In this document: in pieces, positions 789-6,371 of the stretch | Layout of the letters: every line of letters starts with the position of its first letter | Numbering within the stretch: the first letter of the stretch is position 1 | Assembly: GCA_003136095.1 (NCBI GenBank) | Contig: PNBO01000148.1 | Location: 2,832-37,216, forward strand | Direction of reading: 5' to 3' | DNA length: 34,385 bases | Source: Myxococcales bacterium | GTDB lineage: Bacteria > Myxococcota_A > Polyangia > Fen-1088 | Notes under the pieces: model-generated | Seen by the model: the letters and a program-made list of their open reading frames with translations, nothing else | The model's database searches: none | Told to the model about the DNA's origin: nothing | Translations under genes and position numbers: made by a program

Positions 789-871
789 GGAGGAGTGGCC
801 GAGTGGTCGAAGGCGACGGTCTTGAAAACCGTAGCGCGCAAGCGCCGGGGGTTCGAATCCCCCCTCCTCCT
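789..871 (+). tRNA. tRNA-Ser (anticodon TGA)
   Basis: A class II tRNA cloverleaf can be drawn by hand. The acceptor arms are GGAGGAG (789-795) and CTCCTCC (864-870). The anticodon stem ACGGT/ACCGT encloses the loop CTTGAAA, giving anticodon TGA at 823-825. The long variable arm has a GCGC/GCGC stem (834-845), typical of tRNA-Ser. The T arm is GGGGG-TTCGAAT-CCCCC (847-863). The discriminator base would be T (871), which is unusual for Ser, and CCA is not encoded. It reads UCN serine codons. Confidence 0.93.
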
Positions 872-878
872 CACTTCT

Positions 879-1062: not shown

Positions 1063-1153
1063 GGAGAGGTGGCCGAGAGGCCGAAGGCGGCGGTTTGCTA
1101 AACCGTTATACGGGCTAAAACCTGTATCGGGAGTTCGAATCTCCCCCTCTCCG
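1063..1153 (+). tRNA. tRNA-Ser (anticodon GCT)
   Basis: The acceptor arms GGAGAGG (1063-1069) and CCTCTCC (1146-1152) pair fully, with discriminator G at 1153 and no encoded CCA. The anticodon loop TTGCTAA gives GCT at 1097-1099, which reads AGC/AGU serine codons. A long variable arm lies between the anticodon stem and the T arm, which is GGGAG-TTCGAAT-CTCCC (1129-1145). It is the second serine tRNA within 300 bases and differs from the first in the anticodon, acceptor and variable arms, so it is not a simple recent duplicate. Confidence 0.95.
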
Positions 1154-1162
1154 CTAGATACC

Positions 1163-3224: not shown

Positions 3225-3381
3225 GTCGTCACGCGCCGGGCTGCCTTTCTAGCACAGGTGTGCAGGGGAGCAGGGCGCTGTGTGAAGGGTCACGCGTCGG
3301 GGCAATCCGTCATTCTTTTTTCTGTCCCCCCGTGGAATCGTGAGGGATCATTGTCGGGTACCACCTGCGGAGGGACAGCCG

Positions 3382-3996
3382 ATGCGCGAACACGAGATGC
3401 GGATGCGCGTTTTTCGTTTTCTCAAGGCGCGAATGCGCAACATGATCATGCCCGCGACCGTCGGCATTGGGCTTGCCGTGGGAGGGTGCGCGAAGGAAGA
3501 CGTCAAGGCCGTTCCCATGTATGGGGTGGCGTTCCGGGACAGCGGGCCGCCGGCCCAGCCCGACGGCCTCGGCCCGGACAGTCCGCCCCCCGGCCCCGAT
3601 CTGGCGGCGCCTGACACGCGTGAGGTCCAGGTCGCGGCCGACCTTGCGCCGGACAATGGCAACGATGGGCTAGGGCGGGATACGCCAATCTACGGGGTGG
3701 ACATGACGCCGCCCAAGGATGCGAATACCACCGACTTGCCGGCCGACCTGAAAGTTGCGCTCGACGGCGGCGCCATCGACAGCGGAGCCGATCTCGGCGG
3801 TATCATCACCAAGTATATCGCCCCCATTCCGGACGCCGCCGCCGACACGGGCGGCATTGTTCCCGTGTACACGGCTGTCATGCCGGACGCGGCTGTTGGC
3901 AACGATGGGTTGCCGATGCGCTACGCGGCCCAGATGCCCGACGCGGGCGCCGACCTCGGGCTCGCCACGCTCTACCAGGCACCCGTGCAGGCATAG
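3382..3996 (+). CDS. Repeat-bearing lipoprotein (Tyr...Pro-Asp-Ala repeats)
   Basis: The product has 204 residues. The ATG at 3382 is preceded by GGAGG (3369-3373) at 8 bases; an in-frame GTG at 3340 has no such site. The signal peptide ends AVGGC, with Cys36 the lipidation site. The mature part contains degenerate repeats of about 15-17 residues: VPMYGVAFRDSG, TPIYGVDMTPPKDA, TKYIAPIPDAAADTGG, VPVYTAVMPDAAVGND, LPMRYAAQMPDAGADLG and a truncated LATLYQAPVQA at the end. The common pattern is a Pro and Tyr pair, a short hydrophobic stretch, Pro-Asp-Ala, then Asp-Gly. Between the early repeats lie Pro/Asp/Leu-rich spacers. The protein is acidic and probably unstructured. No enzymatic motif is seen and the function is unknown. 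It is divergent from the barrel gene that starts at 3224. Confidence 0.72.
   Translation: MREHEMRMRVFRFLKARMRNMIMPATVGIGLAVGGCAKEDVKAVPMYGVAFRDSGPPAQPDGLGPDSPPPGPDLAAPDTREVQVAADLAPDNGNDGLGRDTPIYGVDMTPPKDANTTDLPADLKVALDGGAIDSGADLGGIITKYIAPIPDAAADTGGIVPVYTAVMPDAAVGNDGLPMRYAAQMPDAGADLGLATLYQAPVQA

Positions 3997-4649: not shown

Positions 4650-6367
<1,718 letters not shown>

Positions 6368-6371
<4 letters not shown>

Follow-up and report, generated by a model that had tools for sequence, protein, structure and literature searches.

A predicted lipoprotein with six tyrosine sites as a likely substrate of a splicease-related radical SAM enzyme

The window, the whole stretch of 34,385 nucleotides analysed here, belongs to a soil or peat, myxobacterium-like genome and contains a gene (3382–3996, plus strand) for a predicted lipoprotein of 204 residues. 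Our preferred reading, to which we give a probability of roughly 0.6, is that this protein is a lipid-anchored, multi-site substrate of a splicease-type radical SAM enzyme (rSAM), modified in trans ahead of export. Its status as an rSAM substrate is well supported, and since most of its relatives are encoded directly beside an rSAM enzyme, it is probably a surface protein modified at several sites and not an ordinary repeat protein. The chemistry is proposed conditionally, because four of the six sites lack the glycine of the canonical XYG motif. If the reading is correct, backbone splicing would extend beyond small secreted peptides and occur many times along membrane-anchored proteins of these Myxococcota.

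The gene and its leader

The open reading frame is real: a Shine-Dalgarno-like GGAGGG (3369–3374, plus strand), recognised by sequence reading, lies 7 nt ahead of the ATG at 3382, the GC content is 0.79 at the third codon position against 0.50 at the second, and the sister species G001 has an ortholog (locus L038) with 89% identity (alignment A3) and the same two neighbours. Between the two, the leader has a dN/dS of 0.03 and the mature part one of 0.33, against 0.25 for the whole gene. The next gene on the 3' side, in the same order in the sister locus, is presumably a prolyl-tRNA synthetase-like gene (4650–6371, plus strand); it is no maturase, and an rSAM gene is absent throughout the 34-kb window. 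Two tRNA-Ser genes, with anticodons TGA and GCT, are also located close together in the window (789–872 and 1063–1154, plus strand).

Residues preceding the lipobox form a conserved leader, MREHEMRMRVFRFLKARMRNMIMPATVGIGLAVGG (3382–3486, plus strand), that doubles as a predicted lipoprotein signal peptide and was delineated from alignment A2, a leader HMM and its low dN/dS. The family consensus is MKExDxRxRIExFLxxTARxVVVPASxGLGLALxGC. The hydrophobic signal segment is followed by the lipobox AVGGC, from which lipidation of Cys36 (3487–3489, plus strand) is predicted; this Cys is invariant among the 15 leaders of alignment A2, as it is in alignment A3, and the window protein contains no Cys beyond it. 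The earlier note had placed the feature at 3511–3993, which covers the repeat part but leaves out the leader and the Cys, and the surface anchor it considered stands only in the form of a predicted lipoprotein. In the AlphaFold model (pLDDT 45.8) the sole ordered element is a helix of residues 3–21, the rest being disordered. The strong constraint on the leader fits a double role, as recognition element and signal peptide, without proving one.

Protein and leader searches find paralogs on contigs C59, C146, C179 and C442 of the window genome, in which the leader HMM detects five copies, and, outside the genus, homologues in a single further genus of its family; the leader is common to all of them. 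The leader of the window protein is 59–62% identical to that of the 116-residue C59 paralog and 37–45% identical to those of the other three. In two further proteins the family leader looks as if it were a mobile module: in L047 (1285–1944, plus strand) it is joined to unrelated Cys-rich antistasin-like repeats, and in L013 (8017–8697, plus strand) to an unrelated protein with a single IYSAYV site. A 27-nt DNA match on contig C58 is probably a chance match to a GC-rich linker, with no family lipoprotein among the open reading frames there.

The tyrosine sites

The mature part of 169 residues contains exactly six Tyr residues (codons 3520, 3691, 3814, 3868, 3922 and 3973), all of them retained in the G001 ortholog. 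Site 1, VPMYGVAFRDSG (3511–3546), has a canonical-looking MYG, and site 2, TPIYGVDM (3682–3705), an IYG. Sites 3, KYIAPIPDAAADTGG (3811–3855), 4, VYTAVMPDAAVGND (3865–3906), and 5, RYAAQMPDAGADLG (3919–3960), are closely spaced, 18 residues apart; the counterpart of site 5 in the sister species is YMAQMPDAG. The C-terminal unit, site 6, LYQAPVQA (3970–3993), is truncated, as the earlier note had seen, and is conserved as LYQAPVQT in the sister species; all six sites are on the plus strand. In order, the Tyr contexts read VPMYGVAF, TPIYGVDM, ITKYIAPIPDAA, VPVYTAVMPDAA, PMRYAAQMPDAG and ATLYQAPVQA, so that the tripeptides at sites 3 to 6 are KYI, VYT, RYA and LYQ and Gly follows Tyr in only two of six sites. 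At position +2, Val or Ala is present in all six (p = 0.0013 against composition shuffles), and similarity over positions +1 to +5, anchored at Tyr, exceeds composition shuffles in a permutation test on the window protein (p = 0.0009). Repeats with one conserved Tyr per unit, as first described, are therefore real, and the greater regularity reported towards the end holds for units 3 to 5. What is conserved is a short Tyr core, X-Tyr-(G/M/A/S)-(A/V/G)-P; the Pro-Asp-Ala that had been included in the repeat is a degenerate linker present in some units only, and the Asp-Ala stretches are ordinary linker.

Among homologues, the C-terminal parts differ in length, spacing and linker composition while the Tyr sites are kept; many retain neither the spacing nor the Pro-Asp-Ala linker. 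The earlier note would have counted homologues without periodicity against its reading, and this applies in part, to spacing and linker, but not to the Tyr sites. Pfam and NCBIfam searches of the window protein were empty (DUF7182, at E 0.18, is noise), in line with the earlier statement that no named domain is present; the Tyr motif itself is not new, resembling the XYG of spliceotides (PMC10533398). Unit 1 (VPMYGVAF) resembles a PlpA core, the comparison sequence being the PlpA-derived tag GAVAAGYGVVFPG (PMC10533398).

A series of short repeats ending in a truncated unit is a typical feature of multi-core precursors, and the enzyme next to the homologues is of RiPP type, so the repeats might be cleaved out as several small peptides, to be released as signals or toxins. 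We regard this as very improbable: the lipobox and the disordered linkers are in keeping with a protein that stays anchored, a conserved protease site (GG or GA) ahead of the units is missing, we saw no gene for a peptidase or an exporter next to the rSAM in the inspected loci, and evidence for unit cleavage, which the earlier note had suggested, was not found.

Neighbouring radical SAM/SPASM enzymes

For most homologues the next gene, 7–60 bp downstream on the same strand, codes for an rSAM/SPASM enzyme of about 380 residues with the N-terminus M(I/L)EVLRRVGFFPRACVWELTLACNLRCKHCGS. The proposal to inspect the neighbours of homologues for modifying enzymes was thus fruitful, and the modified peptide precursor that had been suggested is borne out to the extent that Tyr-site homologues with the same leader are usually located directly upstream of an rSAM/SPASM enzyme from the neighbourhood of the spliceases. 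Substrate–rSAM pairs are present on contigs C59, C146 and C179 of the window genome and, elsewhere, in L040, L041 (two), L042 (two), L048, L050, L053 and L056. Pfam confirms the Radical_SAM and SPASM domains, and the alignment reveals a CX3CX2C cluster; this and what we take to be a seven-Cys SPASM pattern were read from the alignment with the help of general knowledge. The C59 enzyme has a C-terminal TPR domain (Pfam), while in L041, L042 and L056 a separate open reading frame after the rSAM is TPR-like by sequence resemblance. An AlphaFold model of the rSAM (pTM 0.77) confirms a SPASM-maturase-like fold, and nothing more.

The association extends to the residues around Tyr. In 30 adjacent lipoproteins, chosen by rSAM adjacency and a lipobox without regard to Tyr, position +1 is G, A, M or S in 139/176 cases (79%) against 406/1519 (27%) in background genes, position +2 is A, V, G, I or P in 147/174 (84%) against 551/1517 (36%), and position +3 is Pro in 88/174 (51%) against 113/1517 (7%). 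Fisher's test gives p < 1e-34 for each contrast, values that overstate independence because the lipoproteins are related to each other. Family-wide, Tyr is followed by Met in 39%, Gly in 18%, Ala in 16% and Ser in 7% of cases.

When GTDB genomes were scanned with the enzyme alignment, 79 loci were obtained, the best mostly from Myxococcota metagenome-assembled genomes. A related enzyme (E <= 1e-60) is present in 210 of 318 genomes of the class, a set that includes enzymes without a Tyr-site partner. In a tree of 94 enzymes, the three rSAMs of the window genome fall into a 14-member clade with full SH-aLRT support, inside a larger Myxococcota group.

Kinship to the splicease and GDL families

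The best NCBIfam models for the homologues' rSAMs are TIGR04103 (nif11-class peptide radical SAM maturase 3) and TIGR03913 (GDL motif), with 237–265 bits; the next best reach 127–147. These scores are far under the curated cut-offs of 725 and 592, respectively; for TIGR03913 the range is 239.7–257.7 bits against 591.75, which places the enzymes outside the family as curated. They may therefore form a separate subfamily, and their reaction could differ. The rSAMs of the window genome share 35–37% identity with the TIGR04103 enzyme of Nostoc and the TIGR03913 enzyme of Azospirillum, annotated family members taken from plasmid records.

The substrates of both families are alike in their Tyr sites. 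The Nostoc enzyme adjoins a Nif11 precursor whose end carries the site LYGLPP (..IALYGLPPELF; ..GRGSIALYGLPPELF), and is followed by a small open reading frame. Beside the Azospirillum enzyme are three GDL peptides with ..RMLYGGAM, ..KPYGVAISDA and ..RPMYMATMTDA, which points to Tyr as the residue modified in the GDL system. On the Azospirillum lipoferum plasmid (L209, 2546–3246, plus strand) the three DUF1843 GDL peptides are encoded in a row, with YGGAM, YGVAI and YMATM near the N-terminus. An Agathobacter open reading frame, in a record annotated with the TIGR04103 or TIGR03913 family, ends in ..VMYGTGVRM. More distant loci combine a related rSAM with a small precursor, as in Methanosarcina (..VPLYGVVRPLYGVPLK; ..RPVPLYGVVRPLYGVPLK); a precursor-like open reading frame of Chlorobium ends in ..LLYGTPPVPLYQAPSK, and an Arcobacter precursor in ..VVLYMAQPK.

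A 2022 survey by Scott et al. reportedly covered 939 spliceases, and we take IPR026482 to be the same family as TIGR04103. The splicease comparison was made with the NCBIfam family TIGR04103 as a stand-in for PlpX. PlpX belongs to IPR026482 (PMC11002830). PlpXY excises tyramine at MYG and LYG without requiring a leader (PMC10533398), and several splicing events per precursor are on record (PMC10373908). Each excision changes the mass by −135.07 Da and yields an alpha-keto-beta-amino acid.

A different modification of the Tyr sites by the rSAM, such as a crosslink (Tyr to backbone or side chain, for example), a cyclophane, an oxidation or a decarboxylation, would agree with the prevalence of Y-M-A and Y-A-A over Y-G among family sites, with an enzyme subfamily distinct from, and under the cut-offs of, the characterised family, and with the nearest solved folds, SkfB, PqqE and SuiB, which are SPASM maturases of diverse chemistry. 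We consider it rather unlikely, as the two nearest enzyme families share the X-Y-G/X-Y-M-A substrate motif, YG and YMA peptides are mixed in one Azospirillum operon, and the residue preceding Tyr is freely variable, which would be expected of a homologised X.

Comparison with named systems

Spliceotides (Pleurocapsa PlpA/PlpXY) share with the present family a related SPASM rSAM and, at some sites, X-Tyr-Gly with a hydrophobic X, followed by V/L-x-P/F. They carry a Nif11/NHLP leader, whereas the window family consists of lipoproteins with a signal-peptide leader and its sites are mostly Y-M/A/S-A-P instead of XYG. The spliceotide enzyme is of TIGR04103 type, but the enzymes here score below that cut-off, and inspection of neighbouring open reading frames by eye revealed no PlpY-like RRE partner in the Myxococcota loci. 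For these reasons, and with the chemistry proposed conditionally, membership of the spliceotides is not claimed; from the sequences, the system would best be filed as one that works like a splicease substrate.

Enzyme similarity is as high to the GDL peptide (DUF1843)/TIGR03913 systems as to TIGR04103, and the Azospirillum YMATMTDA is nearly equal to the YMATMPDAG of relatives of the window protein. GDL peptides, in contrast to the window family, are about 60 residues long and cytoplasmic-looking, with one site near the N-terminus and no lipobox; Pfam finds no DUF1843 match in the window protein, and the literature searched contains no description of a GDL-system product. In Bacteroidales, the TIGR04133 rSAM and its 'radical SAM-associated putative lipoprotein' have the same arrangement, with the lipoprotein directly upstream of a SPASM rSAM and a YG site just past the lipidated Cys (CEYGSPHANF). 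These lipoproteins have one site each, then folded-looking domains, and no leader in common with the window family, and their enzyme is only 27–29% identical to the rSAMs of the window genome.

RiPP–lipoprotein hybrids are a recognised idea, represented by the DAG-RiPPs (DybA/DybH; PMC12636315), which likewise have a ribosomal precursor, an SPII signal peptide and modification in the cytoplasm followed by lipidation. Their enzyme is a multinuclear non-heme iron oxidase (MNIO) acting on a C-terminal CPACGMG (PMC12636315), while here the homologues neighbour an rSAM/SPASM enzyme, the sites are repeated Tyr sites and the C-terminal Cys motif is missing from the window protein. If our reading is correct, an X-Tyr-(G/M/A/S) motif would link the spliceotide, GDL-peptide and Bacteroidales rSAM–lipoprotein families, the site rule is predicted to be broader than XYG, and TIGR03913 and TIGR04133 products would be open to the same mass-shift test.

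Proposed maturation and function

In the proposed sequence of events, the conserved leader would act first as a recognition helix, bringing the protein to the maturase in the cytoplasm, and afterwards as signal peptide. Modification must come before export, as the rSAM has no signal peptide and its cluster depends on the cytoplasmic environment. As there is no maturase gene beside the window copy, action of the enzyme in trans is the most likely case. The leading candidate would be the rSAM–TPR fusion on contig C59, because its own adjacent substrate has the leader most similar to that of the window protein, because the window-type and C59-type copies are both present in G000 and G001 and missing from the third genus member, G002 (a comparison of three genomes, two of them incomplete), and because the window genome has five leader copies against three close enzymes, each with its own substrate. 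Substrate copies exceed close rSAMs in the relatives as well.

Without an adjacent maturase, the window gene could also be a relic whose product is not modified, or encode a substrate that serves another purpose. An unmodified, low-complexity lipoprotein, encoded by an orphan paralog left without its enzyme and serving only as a surface linker or anchor, would account for the lack of an rSAM in the window and of Gly at four sites, and genomes of this kind commonly encode disordered lipoproteins rich in Asp, Ala and Pro. It is distinctly unlikely, given the strong purifying selection on the leader, the retention of six Tyr in the sister species, the cognate-looking rSAM–substrate pair that accompanies this copy in the window and sister genomes, absent with it from G002, and the general excess of orphan substrates over enzymes.

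On the preferred reading, that of a substrate modified in trans, the enzyme would modify the Tyr of as many as six X-Tyr-Z-(A/V) sites, and splicing would turn the residue that precedes the Tyr at each site (M, I, K, V, R and L) into a ketoamide residue. After export and lipidation of Cys36, the modified chain would be exposed on the membrane surface, and its ketoamides could there serve as electrophiles that target, for example, proteases. Spliceotide products have been described as protease inhibitors (PMC10373908, PMC11117315). Protease inhibition by the window protein is speculative, and so is the thought that the spread of X residues suits proteases of different P1 preference. The full scheme, in which the signal peptide is the rSAM recognition leader, one trans-acting enzyme serves several paralogs and an outer-membrane lipoprotein with six spliced alpha-keto-beta-amino acids is a broad-spectrum protease inhibitor or nucleophile-capturing device, is doubtful.

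Other arrangements in the wider enzyme family

Pairing of rSAM and Tyr-site lipoprotein is not universal in the wider family, as some distant rSAMs have no such neighbour (L062–L067, Smithella and Eremiobacterota); the same is seen in a clade made up of L058, L089, L094, L105, L108, L109 and L111. The L062–L067 enzymes adjoin NGL-repeat or unrelated proteins. One of these, a secreted protein in L062 (8766–9998, minus strand), contains SSINGLSAFNGLSAFNGL repeats, and its NGL repeat may represent another type of rSAM target.

In a number of other clades the rSAM and a substrate part behind it form one fusion protein (L059, L110, L118, L127, L132, L138, L141, L143, L145 and L148). In L059 (7306–9309, minus strand), L110 (1414–3132, plus strand), L132, L138, L141, L143 and L148 the rSAM/SPASM part leads into a hydrophobic segment and then a repeat-site tail; the tails have repeated C-D/E-Y-G-x-x-P or Y-G-P sites, combining enzyme and apparent substrate in one protein. 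A lipoprotein of G018 beside an rSAM (L057, 6716–7948, minus strand) has CDDGIDNDGDG repeats alternating regularly with Y-G/A/M-x-P sites.

A second rSAM–lipoprotein system, with two tandem rSAMs, is found in the same family of organisms (L070 and L071). Its lipoproteins, of about 300 residues, end in KPIIIYAGVRFV and have a single C-terminal Y-A/M-G-V-R-F-V site. An rSAM pair related to that of L070 and L071 is located on contig C329 of the window genome (L069).
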